DNA of 64,000 nucleotides from the NCBI GenBank assembly GCA_026389845.1, contig JAPLHB010000055.1, positions 55,738 to 119,737 on the forward strand, given 5' to 3'. This stretch comes from Chloroflexota bacterium (GTDB taxonomy: Bacteria > Chloroflexota > Anaerolineae > CG2-30-64-16). The stretch's first letter is position 1, and each line of letters begins with the position of its first letter. The notes beneath the pieces were generated by a model. That model was not told the DNA's origin. It worked only from the letters and a program-made list of their open reading frames with translations, and ran no database searches. Shown here piece after piece: positions 12,475-30,294 of this stretch. Position numbers and translations under genes: made by a program.

Positions 12475-12503
12475 TTGACAAGCTGAGCGTGTCGCAGTAT
12501 AAT
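12475..12503 (+). promoter_or_regulatory. Consensus sigma70-type promoter TTGACA-N17-TATAAT
   Basis: TTGACA 12475-12480, TATAAT 12498-12503, 17-bp spacer. Confidence 0.8.
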
Positions 12504-12510
12504 AGCGATT

Positions 12511-12651
12511 GGTGACCAACCCCAGGTGGGGCAAGGTCTTTGACATGAAGAAGACGCTGGGCGGCCTTTAGATCTGGGTTACACCTCTTCGACGGTAGAC
12601 GCTTTTGCTAATCAACGTGTTTGGGCAAGATGGTTCGAGTCCAGGTCACCA
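12511..12651 (+). ncRNA. Candidate structured small RNA, class unknown
   Basis: Starts 7 nt after the -10; closing stem GGTGACC (12511-12517)/GGTCACC (12644-12650); TGGTTCGAGTCCA T-loop-like hairpin; followed by an intrinsic terminator; no long ORF. Confidence 0.6.
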
Positions 12652-12653
12652 GG

Positions 12654-12691
12654 AAGCGGGCAAGGGTGTTATCCTTGGCCCGCTTTCTTTT
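12654..12691 (+). terminator. Rho-independent terminator
   Basis: AAGCGGGC.AAGG ... CCTTGGCCCGCTT stem followed by TTTCTTTT. Confidence 0.75.
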
Positions 12692-12721: not shown

Positions 12722-12750
12722 TTGTGAATTTCACAGAACCCGATTACAAT
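12722..12750 (+). promoter_or_regulatory. Sigma70-type promoter TTGTGA-N17-TACAAT upstream of the helicase
   Basis: TTGTGA 12722-12727, TACAAT 12745-12750, 17-bp spacer. Confidence 0.55.
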
Positions 12751-12900
12751 GCACCTCAGTTAACGTGATGAAGCTGACCAGGTCGCCACTGGCCGGCTTC
12801 GCACCCGAGTCCTGTCCCAAAGGGATGGTTCCCAATCAATCCCAGGAACCGGGCTTCGCAGCCCTCATTGTAGTACGGCTGTTCTTGACGAACAAATGAG

Positions 12901-12934
12901 GTCGCGGCCCTTCATCTTGGGGCCGCGACTTTTT
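12901..12934 (+). terminator. Intrinsic terminator 25 bp upstream of the helicase ATG (possible attenuator)
   Basis: GTCGCGGCCC (12901-12910) / GGGCCGCGAC (12920-12929) perfect 10-bp stem, then TTTTT. Confidence 0.75.
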
Positions 12935-12958: not shown

Positions 12959-15900
12959 ATGGCCCGACTTGAAGACCTGACCCGCGGCGCCGCTGTGCGG
13001 GGCATCTTGCCCGGCGGTCTCGTCACGGTCGTGGACGTGAAGTGGTATGGCACGGCCGTCGTCGAACTGACCTACAAGGACGCCAGCGGCCGCCCCGGCA
13101 ACCAACTGATTTACCGGGACGACGAGACGCGGTTGGAAGTCGTCACCGCGGGCCGGCCGTGGAGCTTCGACGCCGACGGCGAGTTGCTGCGCCTGGTCTC
13201 GGAAGCGCAACGCATCCGCCTGGCGCACCTTTTCGACCCCATCCTGGCTGTCCACACCTCGCTGATCGAGCCGCTGCCGCACCAGATCACTGCCGTCTAC
13301 GAGCAGATGCTGCCGCGCCAGCCGTTGCGCTTCCTGCTGGCCGATGATCCTGGCTCGGGTAAGACGATCATGGCCGGGTTGCTCATCAAGGAACTGTTGA
13401 TCCGCGGCGACCTGCGGCGCTGCCTGGTCGTCTGTCCGGGCAGCCTGGCCGAGCAGTGGCAGGATGAGCTCTACCACCGTTTCCATCTCCCCTTCGAAAT
13501 CCTGACCAACGATCGTATCGAGACCGCACGAACCGGCAACGTCTTCCAGGAGATGCCGCTCTTGATCGCGCGGCTGGATAAGCTGGCGCGCAATGACGAC
13601 CTGCAGGCCAAGCTGCTGTTGACTGATTGGGATCTGGTAGTCTGCGACGAGGCGCACAAGATGTCGGCCTCGTATTTCGGTGGCGAGATCAGCTACACCC
13701 AGCGCTACCGGCTGGGCCAGCGGCTGGGCGGGATTGCGCGCCACTTCCTGCTGATGACGGCCACGCCACACAACGGTAAGGAAGATGACTTCGAGCTCTT
13801 CATGGCGCTGCTCGATGCCGACCGCTTCGAGGGTCGCGTCCGCGATGGCGTGCACACCTCGGACGCGTCTGACCTGATGCGCCGGTTGCCCAAGGAACAA
13901 CTCCTCAAGTTCGACGGCCGGCCGCTTTTTCCGGAGCGACTGGCCTACACCGTGCCCTACCAGCTTTCCGCACTCGAAGCGCGGTTGTACCACGACGTCA
14001 CCCAATATGTCCAGGAGGAGTTCAACCGGGCGGATGCGCTGGAAAGCGAAGGGCGCAAGGGCACGATCGGCTTCGCCCTGACCATCCTACAGCGCCGCCT
14101 GGCGTCGTCGCCGGAAGCGATCTACCAGTCGCTCAAGCGGCGGCGTGAGCGGCTGGAGCGGCGGCGGCGCGAGACGGATCTGCTCAGCCGGGGCGCGACC
14201 CAGACCTGTCAGGTCTCCGAAGACCTGACAGGTCTCGCTGGTCTCGCTTCACCGGACGACCTCGCCGACCTGGAGGATGCGCCGGCCGAAGAAGTGGAGC
14301 GGATCGAGGAGGAGCTGGTTGACCAGGCTACCGCCGCGCGCACGGTGGCCGAGCTGCGCGTCGAGATCGGCATGTTGCAGCGTCTGGAAATGCTGGCGCT
14401 GGAGGTGCGCCGCTCGGGCACGGATCGCAAGTGGGAGGAGCTGGGGAAGATCATTGCGGATTTGCGATTGCCGATTGCGGATTCTCACCTCCACGACGAA
14501 CGATCGGGCAATCAGGTCAATCCGAAATCGGAAATCCGAAATCACAAATTGATCATCTTCACCGAGCATCGCGACACCCTCAGATACCTGGCAGATCGCA
14601 TCCGCACGCTGCTCGGCCGGCCCGAGGCGGTCGTCATCATTCACGGCGGGATGGGGCGCGAGGAGCGCAAGCGGGCGCAAGAGGGTTTCACCCAGGACAA
14701 GGAAGTCCAGGTGCTGGTGGCGACCGACGCGGCCGGCGAAGGCATCAACCTCCAGCGCGCCCACCTGATGATCAACTACGATCTGCCGTGGAACCCCAAC
14801 CGGTTGGAGCAGCGCTTCGGCCGCATCCACCGCATCGGCCAGACCGAGGTTTGCCACCTGTGGAATCTGGTGGCGCAGGAGACGCGCGAGGGCGACGTCT
14901 ATCTGACGCTGCTACGCAAACTGGAGCGGGAGCGTGAAGCTCTCGGCGGCGCAGTCTTCGACGTACTGGGCCGCGCGCTGGATGGCGTTGAGCTGCGCAA
15001 GCTGATGATCGAGGCGATCCGTTACGGCGACCGCCCCGAGGTGCGCGCCCGCCTGAACCAGGTGGTGGAAGGCGCGCTGGACCGTGATCGGCTGCGCGAT
15101 CTGCTGGCGGATCGTGCCCTGGCGCACGACGTAATGGATGCCAGTGCGGTCGAGCGCATCCGCCTGGACATGGCGCGGCTGGAAGCGCGCAAGTTGCAGC
15201 CCCATTTCATCGCCGGCTTCTTCAAAGCCGCGTTCGTGCACCTGGGGGGCACGTTGCGGGAGCGCGAGGCCGGCCGCTACGAGATCAGCCACGTGCCGGC
15301 GCTCATCCGCCAACGCGATCGCGTGATTGGCACGGGCGAGCCGGTGCTGACCCGGTATGAACGCATCTGTTTCGAGAAGACGCTCATCGCCGTGCCGGGC
15401 AAGCCGCTGGCGGCCTTCCTCTGCCCCGGCCACCCACTGCTGGACGCCACCATTGATCTGATGCTGGAGCGCTACCGCGACCTGATGAAGCAGGGCGCGA
15501 TCCTGGTGCACGAAAACGACCCGGGTGAAAACCTGCGTGCGTTGTTCTACCTGGAGCACAGCATCCAGGACGCGCGACCGGGTGGCAGCGGGGGCCGGCG
15601 CGTGGTCTCTCGCCGTCTGCAGTTTGTGGAACTCCCTCTCCCCTCGCTCCCCTCCCCCAAGGTTGGGGGAGGGGATGGGGGTGGGGGCTGCGCCCGCGAT
15701 GCCGGCCCAGCCCCGTACCTGGACTACCGCCCATTGCGGGACGACGAGCGGGCACTGGTGGCGGCGGTCGTTGAGCAGGCGCTCAACCACCAAGATCTGG
15801 AGGGACAAGCCATCGCCTGCGCCATCCAGGATCTGGTGCCGCGGCACTTGGACGAGGTGCGCCGCGTGCGCGAGCCTCTGATCGCCAAGACGATTGCCGC

Positions 15901-16324
15901 CGTGAAGGATCGCCTGACCAAAGAGATCGCCTACTGGGACCACCGCGCCGAGGAGCTGAAGGCGCAGGAGCTGGCCGGCCGCGTCAATGCCAAGATCAAC
16001 TCCAGCAAGGCGCGCCAGCGGGCCGACGAACTGGAAACGCGGCTGCGGGCTCGCCTGGCCGAGCTGGAGCAGGAACGGCAGATCGCCGCGCTCCCGCCGG
16101 CCGTCATTGGCGCGGCGCTGATCGTGCCCGGGGGCTTGCTGGCCCGCCTACGCGGTCAGCGCCGGGCTGCGCCTGGTCTCTTCGCCCGTGAGACCAAGCG
16201 CGTCGAAGAAGCCGCGATGGCCGCGGTCATGGCCGCTGAGCGGGCGCTGAGCCATGAACCCCGCGATGTTGGCCGCGAGAACCGGGGTTACGATACTCTA
16301 TCTATGGGTTCTCAAGAGCGATAA
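12959..16324 (+). pseudogene. DrmD-like SNF2/HepA helicase, N-terminal and helicase portion; 3' end replaced by IS sequence
   Basis: LLADDPGSGKTIMAGLLIKELL, VCDEAHKMSA, MTATPHNGKEDD, TDAAGEGINLQRAHLMINYDLPWNPNRLEQRFGRIHRIGQ; reading frame enters the IS at 16295. Confidence 0.85.
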
Positions 16325-17392
16325 GCGCACTTTGACATAATGGCTGTTTTGGTGGCATCCTTAAGGTTATCCTGAACCCAAGCAAGGAGGCTCCCATGAA
16401 CGGCTTAACCGACTATATCACCGAACGGCCCTGGGTGGATACCATCACCGCCTGGTATGTGCATATCGACGACGCCTATCAACGGCTGCTGGCTAAACGT
16501 GGGCGGCCGTTGCGGACCAACGGGCCAGAGCCGAGCTTTTCGGATAGCGAGGTCATCACCCTCTCGTTGATCAGCGAGACCTTCTTTCAAGGCCATGAAG
16601 ACGTCGCCTACGCTTTCGTGGCCCAGTACCATCGGGACCTGTTTCCCAAGCTGATTGACTTGGATCGTTTCAACGTGCGCCGACGGGAACTCATCGCCGT
16701 GATCGAAGCGATCCGGCGGGATTTGCGGGATCAGAAGCTGGATCGCACCGACCGCGTGCGCCTGGTCGATAGTGCCCCCATCGCCCTGATGACCTACAGC
16801 CGCGGCGCTCGCTGTCAAAGCGTGATCGGCAGTGAGTATTTCGGCGTCGTGACCAGCAAGAAAAGCAAGGTGTTCGGCTTACGCTTGCATGCCACGGTGA
16901 CCGTCGACCAACTCATTGACGAATGGCTCCTGGCGCCTGCCTCCATACCCGATGGGAAAGTGCTCGAAACCCTCGTGCTGGACTGTCGAGACCTCGATAT
17001 CATCGGTGACAAAGGCTATGTCGACGCCGACCTGGAAGACTGGTTGTGGCAACAGCGCGGTATCCACCTCCTGCCCTTACGCCGCGACAACCCAAAAAAG
17101 CAGTGGCCTGACGACATCCGGCGCATCCTGGGCCGCATCCGTCATCGCGTCGAGACCGTTTTCAGCACGTTGACCACGGTGTTCAATGTCGAACGCCCGC
17201 GCGGCCGCACGTTGGCTGGGCACGTAGTGCGAATCGCCACCTGCATCCTGGCTCACACGCTCAGTTTCTTCATGGTGTAACCGACCGACTGCAGGGCTGC
17301 CATTCTACGCAAAGGTGCTGTACCACAGCGCTCAGTTTCGTGCCGCCTGCGTCTGGGCGCCGGCTGTCGCAATAACAACCCATAGATAGAGT
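16295..17392 (+). mobile_element. IS982-family-like insertion sequence
   Basis: 16-bp terminal IRs ACTCTATCTATGGGTT (16295-16310) and AACCCATAGATAGAGT (17377-17392); 5-bp direct repeat ACGAT at 16290-16294 and 17393-17397; transposase inside. Confidence 0.85.
16396..17280 (+). CDS. IS982-family-like DDE transposase
   Basis: SEVITLSLISETFF..., LVDSAPIALMTYSRGARCQ, IIGDKGYVDADLEDWL, RRRIE-type motif RRILGRIRHRVETVFSTLTTVFNVERPRGRTLAGHV. Confidence 0.85.
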   Translation: MNGLTDYITERPWVDTITAWYVHIDDAYQRLLAKRGRPLRTNGPEPSFSDSEVITLSLISETFFQGHEDVAYAFVAQYHRDLFPKLIDLDRFNVRRRELIAVIEAIRRDLRDQKLDRTDRVRLVDSAPIALMTYSRGARCQSVIGSEYFGVVTSKKSKVFGLRLHATVTVDQLIDEWLLAPASIPDGKVLETLVLDCRDLDIIGDKGYVDADLEDWLWQQRGIHLLPLRRDNPKKQWPDDIRRILGRIRHRVETVFSTLTTVFNVERPRGRTLAGHVVRIATCILAHTLSFFMV

Positions 17393-17397
17393 ACGAT

Positions 17398-17742
17398 ATC
17401 GAATCCGTCGTCAGTGGCCCCGGCGCCGGCAACGATCGGCTGCGCTTCATCGAGGTCAAGGGCCGCATATCCGGCGCGGAGACGGTGACGATCACTAAGA
17501 ATGAGATCCTGACAGCACTGAACAAACCCGACGACTGGCTCCTGGCGTTGGTGGAAGTGCCGCCCGCGCCCGACTTCGGTGAGGCGCTGATGGTGGGCGA
17601 GGAGCGGCCGACTTACGGCGCGCCGGCCGGCTGTGTGGTAAAATACGTGCAGCGTCCGTTCACGCGCGAGCCGGACTTCGGCGCGACGAGCGTCAATTAC
17701 AATTGGCGCGACCTGTGGACGCGCGGGGAGATCGTGACATGA
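17398..17742 (+). pseudogene. Detached C-terminal DUF3883-like domain of the helicase
   Basis: Excising the IS plus one ACGAT copy restores GGT TAC GAT ATC GAA TCC..., giving GYDIESVVSGPGAGNDRLRFIEVKGRISGAETVTITKNEILTALNKPDDWLLALVEV... Confidence 0.85.
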
Positions 17743-18902
17743 CAAGCAAAACCAATAAGCCATTGCGTTTGACAGCGGTCCATCTGGAAAACTGGCGCAA
17801 CTTCACGCTGGCAGATGTTGCACTGCAGCAACGAGTTTTCCTTGTCGGGCCAAATGCGGCGGGAAAATCTAACTTACTGGATGGTTTTCGCTTTTTACAC
17901 GACATCGTCGCTGTAGGCGGCGGCTTCCAGGAGGCGGTGCGCAAGCGCGGCGGCGTATCCAAGCTGCGGAGTCTGGCTGCGCGTCGCTACCCGGATGTGG
18001 TCGTACAGGTGCAGATCGGCAACGATGAAGACCCCGCGGCCTGGACTTATGAGTTGCGCTTCACCCAAGACAACCGCCAGCGCCCGATTATCAAGCGCGA
18101 ATGGGCCGCGAAGGCCGGCAAGACCATCATCGAACGCCCAGATGAAAAAGACGGCAGCGATCCAGAGCGACTGACCCAGACCTATCTCGAACAGGTCAAC
18201 GCCAACCTGGAATTCCGGGATGTGAGCGATTTCCTGACGACGATTCGTTATCTGCATATCGTCCCGCAACTTGTCCGGGAGCCAGATCGCTCGGTGGGCC
18301 GGAGCAATGACCCCTATGGGGGCGATTTCTTGGAACAGATTGCCCGCACTACTGAGAAGACCCAGAAGGCGCGCTTGCGCAAAATCAGCAACGCCTTGAA
18401 GGTTGCGGTGCCGCAATTGGCCGAACTGGTGTTATGGCGCGATGACGTCAAGGGCACGCCCCATCTGCGCGGGAAGTACGAGCACTGGCGTCCCCAGGGC
18501 GCCTGGCAGACGGAGGAGCAGTTCTCGGATGGCACGCTCCGGCTGACGGGATTGCTATGGGCCGTCTTAGATGGCGCTGGCCCGCTCTTGCTTGAGGAGC
18601 CAGAACTGTCGCTCCATCCGGAGGTGGTTCGATTTCTGCCCCAGATGTTCGCTCGTATCCAAGGCCGTTCGGGCCGGCAAGTTCTGGTCAGTACGCACTC
18701 GACCGATCTTCTCCGCGACAGCGGCATCGGTCTGGATGAAGTGCTCCTGTTGCGACCCGGCACAGAGGGCACTACCGTGTCGGCAGCGCGCGAGCGAGAC
18801 GAGGTCAAGCTGCTTCTCGATAGTGGTCTGAGCATGGCTGAGGCCGTCATGCCCCTGACCCGACCGGAACGCGCCGAACAACTGACGCTCTTTGGGGAAT
18901 GA
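17739..18902 (+). CDS. AAA15/RecF-SMC-type ATPase (OLD-like without TOPRIM)
   Basis: Walker A GPNAAGKSNLLD; ABC/SMC signature and Walker B GPLLLEEPELSLHPEVV; VSTHSTDLL; ATG overlaps helicase stop. Confidence 0.85.
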   Translation: MTSKTNKPLRLTAVHLENWRNFTLADVALQQRVFLVGPNAAGKSNLLDGFRFLHDIVAVGGGFQEAVRKRGGVSKLRSLAARRYPDVVVQVQIGNDEDPAAWTYELRFTQDNRQRPIIKREWAAKAGKTIIERPDEKDGSDPERLTQTYLEQVNANLEFRDVSDFLTTIRYLHIVPQLVREPDRSVGRSNDPYGGDFLEQIARTTEKTQKARLRKISNALKVAVPQLAELVLWRDDVKGTPHLRGKYEHWRPQGAWQTEEQFSDGTLRLTGLLWAVLDGAGPLLLEEPELSLHPEVVRFLPQMFARIQGRSGRQVLVSTHSTDLLRDSGIGLDEVLLLRPGTEGTTVSAARERDEVKLLLDSGLSMAEAVMPLTRPERAEQLTLFGE

Positions 18903-19543
18903 AACCGATGCCACCTTTGCCCATCACCTTTTCGGCAGCCGTCGAGGGTCCGTCCGACGAGGCCGTTCTACGGCGCGTTGTCGAGCATCTCGGTGCAACC
19001 CTGGGGCCTGTTTATGGCAAGACCGGCAAGGCAACCCTGCTGAGACAACTGCACAGCTACAATCAGGCCGCACAATTCCAACCGTGGATCGTCCTCGTTG
19101 ATCTGGACCGGGATACCGAGTGTGCGCCGCCGGCCCGGGCGCAGTGGCTGCCTACCGCGGCGGCGCACATGTGCTTCCGGATCGCAGTGCGAGAAGTCGA
19201 GAGCTGGCTCCTGGCAGATCGGGAGACGCTGGCGGATTTCCTGGGGGTTGCCCTGTCACGCATCCCCATAAGTCCTGAAACCCTGGACGATCCCAAAGCA
19301 GCCCTGGTCAACCTCGCTCGCCGTTCCCGCCGCCGCGACATCCGGGTGGATATGGTGCCACGACCGGAGAGCGGCCGGTCGGAAGGACCGGCCTACACTT
19401 CGCGCCTCATCGAGTATGCTCAGGGTTCCTGGCGACCAGACATCGCAGCCCAGCACGCCGACAGCCTACAGCGGTTTTGCGGGCGCGTGGCTGAACTTAT
19501 GGCGCGACCCGTTGTCTTGGACAGCGAGAGACCCGGCAAATGA
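18899..19543 (+). CDS. DUF4276 family protein (TOPRIM-like nuclease partner)
   Basis: AAVEGPSDEAVLRRVVEHLGA...WIVLVDLDRDTEC...AVREVESWLLADRETLADFLGV; ATG overlaps ATPase stop. Confidence 0.75.
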   Translation: MKPMPPLPITFSAAVEGPSDEAVLRRVVEHLGATLGPVYGKTGKATLLRQLHSYNQAAQFQPWIVLVDLDRDTECAPPARAQWLPTAAAHMCFRIAVREVESWLLADRETLADFLGVALSRIPISPETLDDPKAALVNLARRSRRRDIRVDMVPRPESGRSEGPAYTSRLIEYAQGSWRPDIAAQHADSLQRFCGRVAELMARPVVLDSERPGK

Positions 19544-19808: not shown

Positions 19809-19898
19809 ACGTAATCTTTGACACAATTGAACCGAGACACTCGTTGCATCAGGATACTGCTGTTGCGAAATCTGATCGTGCAACGGTCAAGGATCCCG

Positions 19899-19943
19899 AT
19901 GACCACCCATCGCAAACACATCAAAGTCGCCTTATCCGCCTGA
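19899..19943 (+). pseudogene. Very short DUF1156 methyltransferase 5' remnant
   Basis: MTTHRKHIKVALSA stop resembles MTTQRKLIAVALTLEA. Confidence 0.55.
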
Positions 19944-19981
19944 AGGCTCCAATCCAGAGTCGAGGCCTTAGTTGGAGAACC

Positions 19982-22873
<2,892 letters not shown>

Positions 22874-26776: not shown

Positions 26777-26934
26777 CTTTGTAGGACCCAGACTGTAAGT
26801 AAAGGTCAACACCATCATAACCGATCCGAGACCAAAAGTCAATAGATTTTCGAACAATTGGGCAAATTCGGCTCATTCATCGCGTTGATGCGCCTGTCCA
26901 GGTGAGTCCGGGCAGCTCAAGTCGGGAGACAAAT

Positions 26935-29900
26935 ATGGCAATCACCAACCACGAGCGTGTCGGCAAGGCGCTGGACCTCCTGCGCCAGGGCCTGGCGCCC
27001 TACATCGAGCGCGAGATGCGCGCCGCATACGAGAGCCAGTGGCGCAAGCAAGCCGCCTACAGCCTCAAGCGCGAGGGCGACCTGCCCGACGACGAGCAGC
27101 TGGACACCCACACGCTGCTGGTCATCATGTGGGACCACTGGAACGAGGCGTTTAAGGGCACGCTGGGGTTTGCCGAACGCAGCCTGGTCAGCGAGCTGCG
27201 CGAGACGCGCAACCGCTGGGCGCACCAGGGGACCTTCTCCACGGACGACACCTATCGCGCCCTGGACAGCATCGCACGCCTGTTGGCAGCGGTCTCGGCG
27301 CCGGAAGCGACCGACGTGGAGCGGCAGAAGCAGGAGCTGCTGCGGCTGCGTTTCGAGGAAGAGGCGCGGCGTGAAAGCCGCAAGGCCGCGGTCGCGCCGG
27401 TGGAAGGCCGGCCGTCGGCCGGGTTGCGCCCCTGGCGCGAGATCGTCACACCCCATCCCGACGTGGCCTCGGGTAGGTATCTGCAAGCCGAGTTCGCAGC
27501 CGACCTGTGGCAGGTGTACATGGGCGAGGGGACCGACGAGTACCGCGACCCCGTCCAGTTCTTCGAGCGCACCTTCCTCACCGACGGCCTGCGCCGGCTG
27601 CTGGTCGGCGCGCTGCGCCGGCTGGCCGGCCAGCCGGCTGACCCGGTGATCGAGCTGCAAACCAATTTCGGCGGCGGCAAGACCCACTCGATGCTGGCGC
27701 TGTATCACCTCTTCTCCGGTACTGCGCTCTCAAAGTTGCCGGGCGTCGAGAGCATGCTGCGCGATCACGGAGTGCAGGAATCCGCAATCCGCAATCCGCA
27801 ATCTGCAATCTGCAATCGTGCGGTCCTGGTGGGCACCAAGATCTCGCCCGGCCAGCCCAGCCGCAAGCCCGACGGCACGCTGGTACACACCTTGTGGGGC
27901 GAGCTGGCCTGGCAGTTGGGCGGCGCGGAGGGGTACGCCGTAGTGGCCGAAGATGACCACCGCGCCACCAACCCCGGCGACGCGCTGCGCGTGCTCTTCA
28001 ACCGCTACGCGCCCTGCCTGATCCTGGTGGACGAATGGGTGGCTTACGCGCGGCAGCTCCACGACCGCGCCGATGCTTCGGCCCGGCTCAGCACAAGCCT
28101 GCCCGGCGGCAGCTTCGATACCCACTTCACCTTCGCCCAGACCCTCACCGAGGCGGCCAAGGCTGCCGACCGCACGCTGCTGGTGGTCAGCATGCCCGCG
28201 TCCGACATCGAGGTCGGCGGCGACCGGGGGCGGACGGCCCTCGACCGGTTGAAGAACGCCATCGGCCGGGTGGAGTCGCCCTGGCGGCCGGCCAGCGCCG
28301 AGGAGGGGTTCGAGATCGTGCGCCGGCGGCTGTTCCAGCCGATGAGCGATCCCGCCGCGTTCGCGGCGCGCGATGCTGTGGTGGATGCCTTTGCCCGGCT
28401 CTACCGCGAACAGGGCCAGGAATTCCCGCCCGAGTGCCGCGAGGCGGCCTACGAACGCCGCATGACGGCCGCTTACCCCATCCACCCGGAGCTCTTCGAC
28501 CGGCTCTACACCGAGTGGTCGAGCCTGGATGAATTCCAACGCACCCGCGGCGTGCTGCGCCTGATGGCCGCAGTCATCCACGCGTTGTGGGAGCGCGGGG
28601 ACGGCAACCTGCTGATCCTGCCCGCCACCGTGCCGATTGATGACGCCAGTGTACAGGCCGAGCTTACCCGCTACCTGGAAGACCACTGGGTGCCGGTGAT
28701 CGAGAAGGACGTGGACGGGCCGAACAGCCTCCCGCTGGCGCTCGATCGGAGCAATCCTAACCTGGGCCGCTACTCCGCCTGCCGCCGCGTCGCCCGTACC
28801 GTCTACATGGGCTCTGCGCCCACGGCCAAGACGCGCAACCCGGGCATTGATGACCGCAACGTCAAGCTCGGCTGCGTGCAGCCAGGCGAGACGCCGGCCA
28901 CCTTCGGCGACGCGTTGCGTCGGCTGGCCGATGGCGCCGCGCACCTGTATGTGGATCGCAGCCGCTACTGGTTCAGCACCCAGCCCAGCGTCAACCGGCT
29001 GGCGCAGGATCGGGCCGCGCGCATTGACGAGGACACGGTGCATGAGGAAATCGTGCGTCGGTTGCGTGAAGATCGTGCAAGAAGCGATTTCTCTGCTGTC
29101 CACCTGGCGCCGTTGTCCACGGCGGACGTGCCAGACGAGCCTTCGGCGCGCCTGGTCGTGCTACACCCGAAACATCCGCACGTGTTCAAGGCCGCCGACA
29201 GCCCCGCGCGGCAGCAGGCCGCGGCGATGCTGGCCGGCCGTGGCGCCGGTCCCCGGCTCTACCAAAACATGCTGGTCTTCCTGGCCCCCGAGAAGGCGCG
29301 GCTGGCTGAGTTGGTCGATGCTGTGCGGGGGTATCTGGCCTGGAAATCCATCCACGACGAGCGGGAGGCGTTGGATCTGGGCGCGTTCCAGCGCAGCCAG
29401 GCGGAGACCAAGGTCAAACTGGCCGACGACACCGCGCGAGCCCGCATCGGCGAGACCTACGCGCTGGTGTTGACGCCAACGCAGCCCGACCCGCGCCAAC
29501 CCGAGCTGACATGGGAGGACCTGCGGCTCCAAGGGCCGGATTCCCTGGCCGTACGCGCCGGGCGCAAGCTGAAGAACGACGGCCAACTCATCGTCCAATA
29601 CTCAGCCGCCAGCCTCAAGCTGGAGATAGACCGCTACAACCTGTGGGGGGAAGGCGATCACATCTCGCTCAAGCAGGTCTGGGAGTACTTCGCCCGCTAT
29701 CCGTACCTGCCGCGGCTGTTGGATGCCAACACGCTGCTGGGCGCGGTCCAGGATGGCATCGGCCAGGTGACCTGGACCGAGAACTTCGCTTACGCGGAGG
29801 GCTACGATGCCGAGCGCCAGCGCTATCTCAATCTCAAGGCTGGCGTGAGCGGCAGTGTGGTCATGGACAGCCGCAGCGTGCTTGTCAAGCCCGCGGTTGC

Positions 29901-30294
29901 CTTGACCCAACTCCGTCAGGATGAAGAGGCGGCCACGGCACACCTGCGCCGTGGCCAGCCCGAGGGCGGTGAACAACCGCCGCGCGGGGGCCTGGTCGAA
30001 CCGGGTCAGGCGGACCGGCCAGGAACCGGGGGCGGTGTCCCATCACCGATCGAGCGCCGGCTGCGGCGCTTCTACGGTACTGTGGAGATTGACCCGCTTC
30101 GTGCCGGTCGCGATGTCGGGCAGATCACCGAGGCGGTGATCCAGCACCTGGCGGGGCAGGTGGGCGCGCGGGTGAAGGTGACGCTGGAGATCGAGGCCGA
30201 GCTGCCGGATGGCGCGCCGGAGAATGTGGTGCGAACCGTATCGGAGAATGCGCGCACGCTGCGGTTCACCAATGCGGCGTTCGAGGAAAGATAG
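26935..30294 (+). CDS. Swt1-HEPN-like plus DUF499 P-loop ATPase
   Basis: N-terminal HEPN-like region with Rx4H (RNRWAH); ELQTNFGGGKTHSMLALYHLFSG Walker A; CLILVDEWVAYARQL Walker B. Confidence 0.85.
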   Translation: MAITNHERVGKALDLLRQGLAPYIEREMRAAYESQWRKQAAYSLKREGDLPDDEQLDTHTLLVIMWDHWNEAFKGTLGFAERSLVSELRETRNRWAHQGTFSTDDTYRALDSIARLLAAVSAPEATDVERQKQELLRLRFEEEARRESRKAAVAPVEGRPSAGLRPWREIVTPHPDVASGRYLQAEFAADLWQVYMGEGTDEYRDPVQFFERTFLTDGLRRLLVGALRRLAGQPADPVIELQTNFGGGKTHSMLALYHLFSGTALSKLPGVESMLRDHGVQESAIRNPQSAICNRAVLVGTKISPGQPSRKPDGTLVHTLWGELAWQLGGAEGYAVVAEDDHRATNPGDALRVLFNRYAPCLILVDEWVAYARQLHDRADASARLSTSLPGGSFDTHFTFAQTLTEAAKAADRTLLVVSMPASDIEVGGDRGRTALDRLKNAIGRVESPWRPASAEEGFEIVRRRLFQPMSDPAAFAARDAVVDAFARLYREQGQEFPPECREAAYERRMTAAYPIHPELFDRLYTEWSSLDEFQRTRGVLRLMAAVIHALWERGDGNLLILPATVPIDDASVQAELTRYLEDHWVPVIEKDVDGPNSLPLALDRSNPNLGRYSACRRVARTVYMGSAPTAKTRNPGIDDRNVKLGCVQPGETPATFGDALRRLADGAAHLYVDRSRYWFSTQPSVNRLAQDRAARIDEDTVHEEIVRRLREDRARSDFSAVHLAPLSTADVPDEPSARLVVLHPKHPHVFKAADSPARQQAAAMLAGRGAGPRLYQNMLVFLAPEKARLAELVDAVRGYLAWKSIHDEREALDLGAFQRSQAETKVKLADDTARARIGETYALVLTPTQPDPRQPELTWEDLRLQGPDSLAVRAGRKLKNDGQLIVQYSAASLKLEIDRYNLWGEGDHISLKQVWEYFARYPYLPRLLDANTLLGAVQDGIGQVTWTENFAYAEGYDAERQRYLNLKAGVSGSVVMDSRSVLVKPAVALTQLRQDEEAATAHLRRGQPEGGEQPPRGGLVEPGQADRPGTGGGVPSPIERRLRRFYGTVEIDPLRAGRDVGQITEAVIQHLAGQVGARVKVTLEIEAELPDGAPENVVRTVSENARTLRFTNAAFEER

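Follow-up and report, generated by a model that had tools for sequence, protein, structure and literature searches.

A conserved structured RNA associated with anti-phage defence genes in one Chloroflexota group, and a probable short transcription unit beside it

Introduction

It is an open question how bacteria hold many costly defence systems in check and step them up at need. The window (i.e. the whole stretch of 64,000 nucleotides that was analysed) carries, at the border between an injection-type locus and a defence island, a short unit with a perfect promoter and a terminator, which a sequence-only reading had proposed to be an orphan structured RNA gene. What this unit (RNA1) is, and what stands between it and the first defence gene, are the questions addressed below. 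The parts of RNA1 and RNA2 and the hma genes described for the window lie on the forward strand.

Results

Promoter, closing stem and terminator of RNA1

RNA1 opens with the promoter TTGACA-N17-TATAAT (12475–12503; 12 of 12), the -35 box of which is read directly at 12475 and the -10 box at 12498 with a spacer of 17 nt, and it closes with a long intrinsic terminator hairpin with TTTCTTTT and a T-rich tail (about 12653–12691 by sequence and folding), reaching 12691. A pattern scan identified 40 perfect TTGACA-N17-TATAAT sites in the host genome, located upstream of tRNAs and genes, as against none for the reversed control. Such promoters clearly constitute a real, non-random class in this genome, and so large a difference makes promoter scanning an exceptionally informative approach for this lineage. 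The two ends of the unit are joined by GGTGACC (12511) and GGTCACC (12644), which may be extended to a 9-bp stem with one T-G pair (5' arm TTGGTGACC, 12509–12517; 3' arm GGTCACCAG, 12644–12652). At least eight Watson-Crick pairs joining the ends were found in 0.4% of dinucleotide shuffles (p about 0.004); the exact reverse complement pointed out by the sequence-only reading is present and forms part of a stem that is rare by chance. The combination of promoter, end-joining stem and terminator makes a transcript of ~180 nt likely, and we infer from it both that RNA1 is transcribed at all and that the product is a terminated RNA of this size. Every motif that had been named between 12475 and 12691 was located within a base of its assigned site, the view of the region as a free-standing unit gains support from the promoter class and the rarity of the stem, and its position where the defence island adjoins the injection-type locus was likewise borne out.

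The interior of the unit contains CCCCAGGTGGGG (12520), GTCTT (12536), AAGAC (12551) and TGGTTCGAGTCCA (12631), while direct reading places GATCTGG at 12571 and CCAGGTC at 12641. The micro-ORF MKKTLGGL (ATG...TAG, 12545–12571) that had been reported is indeed present, but its significance is lost, since an ORF with an upstream AAGG-like motif occurs in 6% of shuffles. Similarly, the description of RNA1 as structured is not supported for its body, which without the terminator is no more stable than shuffles (folding z 0.02) and for which no homologue was available to reveal covariation; the lower value of the complete unit (z -2.25) is due to the contribution of the terminator.

Identity and conservation of RNA1

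No Rfam family matched RNA1 at the gathering score, with chance-level matches only at E values up to 10, in agreement with the sequence-only reading, which had recognised no known RNA family in it. It is extremely improbable that RNA1 represents a tRNA, a tmRNA or a tRNA remnant, as the tRNA-like reading, which drew on a tRNA-type promoter and on TTCGAGT adjoining a 7-bp stem, is contradicted by negative ARAGORN and Rfam results for both RNA types, by a normal tmRNA elsewhere in the host genome, by a putative T-stem in which only three pairs fit (where a 5-bp stem with a TTCRANN loop is required), by the absence of any visible D-arm or anticodon arm, and by a best predicted fold that pairs TGGGC with GTCCA and has no T-arm.

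RNA1 is present as a single copy in its own genome. A blastn search of 59 relatives yielded short stretches only (best E 0.018), a covariance model recognised RNA1 itself at 1.5e-48 and otherwise returned E values of 0.01 or worse across 396 genomes of the class, and a deep search of 13 genomes produced nothing convincing. No RNA1-like sequence was found near the other copies of RNA2 (see below), and searches of plasmids, phages and viral contigs were without match. The covariance search of relatives suggested by the sequence-only reading thus gave no convincing homologue as far as searched, an outcome which that reading had itself listed as counting against its proposal; these relatives included no other member of the genus, so RNA1 could be a very young RNA. 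A pair of matches in genome G039 looked like GC-rich, coding-type sequence and was judged to be due to chance. A role as a conserved helicase leader was rejected, as nothing with a recognisable likeness to RNA1 stands upstream of the helicase genes most similar to the one here. Membership of the injection locus likewise gained no support, few relatives having a homologue of the DUF6519 gene that lies upstream.

RNA1 is therefore regarded as a probable non-conserved transcription unit directly before a defence operon, likely either an orphan sRNA or an upstream portion of a leader; most likely it gives a non-conserved short transcript, possibly as part of a longer hma leader. The original proposal of a functional, trans-acting orphan small RNA, structured and with an essential closing stem, is doubtful: the perfect promoter, the terminator and the rarity of the end-joining stem in shuffles argue for it, but the body folds like shuffled sequence and neither a homologue in relatives nor a second copy was found. 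RNA1 alone would be of little importance unless a transcript and relatives turn up.

A second unit, RNA2, is a conserved structured RNA

About 60 nt downstream of RNA1, and overlooked by the first reading, begins a second unit (RNA2, 12757–12934) which separates RNA1 from the first defence gene and has its own promoter (TTGTGA-N17-TACAAT, 12722–12750) and its own intrinsic terminator (12902–12934), the latter situated 24 nt before the start codon of hmaA. The palindrome TGTGAATTTCACA (12723–12735) overlaps the -35 box, and two further copies in the genome carry the related GGATTTCACGGAATCC at the same place, which may constitute an operator. Separately, an 11-nt near-match was noted between RNA1 (12641–12651, CCAGGTCACCA) and RNA2 (about 12785–12795, CCAGGTCGCCA); this may be chance, but one consequence is complementarity between the loop region of the first RNA2 hairpin and the 5' end of RNA1.

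That hairpin (H1) comprises 13 bp, GAAGCCGRCCAG...CTGGCCGGCTTC (12769–12781 with 12789–12801), and covaries, while the second helix (H2), CCCG-nn-TCCTG...CAGGA-nn-CGGG (12804–12814 with 12843–12853), is nearly invariant. H2 is followed by GCATCGCAGCC and then by CCTCAT (12863–12868), which may pair with a conserved ATGAGG (12896–12901) immediately before the terminator; the latter consists of CCGCGGCCC...GGGGCCGCGG followed by T residues, and it also covaries. Besides H1 and H2, single-stranded blocks are conserved. In a MAFFT alignment 91.8% of cells were paired (27–49% when the alignment was slid), with eight double-change pairs, while 27 copies fitted to the model, an alignment that leans towards the structure, gave 90.0% and 14 double-change pairs, none of 500 shuffles being as high on pairs or score. 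Covariation is concentrated in H1 and the terminator, the CCTCAT/ATGAGG helix being the weakest, and since recent duplication or transfer links the copies to one another, the counts overstate the number of independent events. RNA2 is a conserved structured RNA whose homologues display compensatory changes, as counted without regard to phylogeny.

Distribution of the RNA2 family

An initial search with the RNA2 stretch produced many matches, and a covariance model trained on 15 copies identified 12 in the host genome. It placed a further 19 in six other genomes, of which five belong to the same family and one (G039) to another family of the class. No copy was found in four further genomes of the same family (G002, G003, G006 and G007), and almost none elsewhere in the sampled class and phylum. 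An exact motif search of a collection of 85,000 species returned six records only: four from Chloroflexi/Anaerolineae, which fit, and two in other phyla that are likely chance. Weak model matches in G340 (L199, 1778–1918) and G206 (L200, 1820–1943) keep the layout of H1, H2 and terminator and may be distant relatives; they were excluded from the counts, as was a weak class match in G245, which is probably not a relative. A phylum match in G712 (a 13.7-Mb genome) was rejected as a simple long inverted repeat. The RNA2 copies scanned against Rfam gave no match at the gathering score and no sensible weak match, and, judged by these comparisons, RNA2 is a member of a family absent from Rfam and previously unlisted. 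The open-access literature yielded no description of such leaders, an earlier description elsewhere being possible.

RNA2 precedes unrelated defence genes

The gene immediately downstream of RNA2 in the window is hmaA, encoding an SNF2-type helicase (12959–16324), which together with the DNA-adenine methylase gene hmaB (19844–22873) and the DUF499-type ATPase gene hmaC (26902–30294) makes up a complete Hma set; Hma has been related to BREX (PMC12839542, a 2026 paper). The operon is interrupted between hmaA and hmaB by a gene for a transposase together with two genes resembling the HEC-01A/HEC-01B pair (16396–19543). Other copies of RNA2 are followed by an HmaA/DrmD-like helicase (C199) or HmaC (G1_C93), by BrxA (G9_C227 and G4_C249, and as the second gene at C13) or BrxC (second gene at C223), by HsdM (C211, C149 and G8_C522) or HsdR (C204), by Mod-type methylases (C108 and C200) and ResIII-type proteins (C92 and G39_1835), by SspB/DUF4007 (G4_C315), by DruE-like helicases (G9_C267a and G5_C325b), and by a PLD-helicase (G1_C43), a WYL regulator (G1_C59a) and a DinG-type helicase (G39_1471). 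The systems represented are BREX, type I and type III restriction-modification, Hma, SspB and Druantia-like; no ToxN-like toxin family was found among the downstream genes.

Twenty downstream genes, selected from the clearest open frames (the C223 entry being the second gene), were compared using PADLOC at E 1e-10 with 19 control genes located behind perfect promoters in the host genome: 15 of the former and two of the latter were recognised (Fisher p 5e-5). RNA2 is associated with anti-phage defence genes in this one group of Chloroflexota. At two loci (L143 and L144; G009:C247 and G004:C405) RNA2 stands before a RadC-like gene (UPF0758 N-terminal), which to our knowledge is not established as a stand-alone defence gene. 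At a further locus (L139, 353–1986; G005:C325) RNA2 is followed by a short, apparently truncated hmaA-like start and then by an AAA ATPase gene, a gene order that resembles that of the window.

A -10 box was observed 15–18 nt upstream of the model start in 23 of 31 copies, and this constant distance fixes the 5' end of RNA2, while the terminator is followed on the same strand by a start codon, typically after tens of bases. When copies with differing downstream genes were paired (G1_C43/G39_1471, window/C223 and C149/C200), similarity was gone within about 10 nt past the terminator; the promoter-leader-terminator block accordingly acts as a unit passed between operons. The best reading of these comparisons is that RNA2 represents a transferable promoter-leader-terminator cassette placed before many unrelated defence operons. 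Some copies have no recognised adjacent defence gene or have lost the terminator (C130, C18, G39_415, G39_2190 and G9_C267b). Next to the C200 copy (L189) there is no -10 box; some 200 nt further upstream stands a TTGACA/TATAAT promoter whose spacer measures 18 nt, and some RNA2 leaders may accordingly be longer.

Discussion

The explanation that we consider probable for the locus as a whole is that RNA1 is a non-conserved unit, while the RNA2 family constitutes an attenuating cassette before defence operons. RNA2 has the layout of an attenuator (i.e. a promoter, a folded leader and an intrinsic terminator before a start codon). Its terminator would halt most transcripts and thereby keep the defence genes low, and the polymerase would be able to read through when the folded leader is acted upon by a particular factor or condition. 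Transcription attenuation with regulated read-through is most likely what this arrangement brings about, and we lean towards regulated attenuation as the function of RNA2. Since no clear antiterminator overlapping the terminator stem was seen in the alignment, the regulated nature of the read-through is something that we infer. A more ambitious version of attenuation, in which RNA2 is a general defence switch (a riboswitch-like or factor-bound leader sensing infection or another cell state), is speculative and rather less likely to be correct; if true, it would place the BREX, restriction-modification, Hma, Ssp and Druantia-like operons of a single cell under common RNA-based control.

Two other explanations have to be weighed, each of which appears unlikely. 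The conservation of the terminator and the lack of a recognised antiterminator would suit an insulator or a terminator that damps constitutively, read-through being under no regulation; however, a plain terminator would have no need of H1, H2 and the single-stranded blocks, all of which are kept. Alternatively, as its own promoter and terminator would yield a discrete RNA, RNA2 could act in trans, either as a free sRNA or as a partner resembling an RNA antitoxin, and merely be located before defence genes; a precedent exists in the abiF motif RNA RCd22 of Clostridioides difficile, which affects its defence protein in trans as well as in cis (PMC12373285). Against this, the distance to the start codon is usually no more than tens of bases, and the genes that follow represent many unrelated families, which makes a single protein partner unlikely.

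Under the favoured attenuation reading, one terminator-bearing leader common to unrelated defence operons of a genome would amount to a simple control layer, and RNA2 would serve as a marker for further defence operons in Chloroflexota.

RNA1 shares with tmRNA and tRNA an end-joining stem, a TTCGAGT motif and a strong promoter, but it has no model match or cloverleaf, and the normal tmRNA of the host is encoded elsewhere. Like RNA2, type III toxin-antitoxin RNAs precede a gene and carry a terminator; in contrast, RNA2 has no repeat array, and its genes are those of restriction, BREX and helicase proteins rather than of one toxin family. Of the defence-linked RNAs found, the abiF motif RNA comes closest: it is likewise conserved, non-coding and linked to an anti-phage gene, although it accompanies and binds a single protein family whereas RNA2 accompanies many unrelated ones (PMC12373285). 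With terminator-type leaders such as the T-box and metabolite riboswitches, RNA2 has in common a promoter, a conserved folded leader and a terminator near a start codon, repeated at many loci; it differs from them in having no Rfam match or recognised antiterminator or ligand, and in that what it serves is not a single metabolic pathway but a range of defence operons unrelated to one another.
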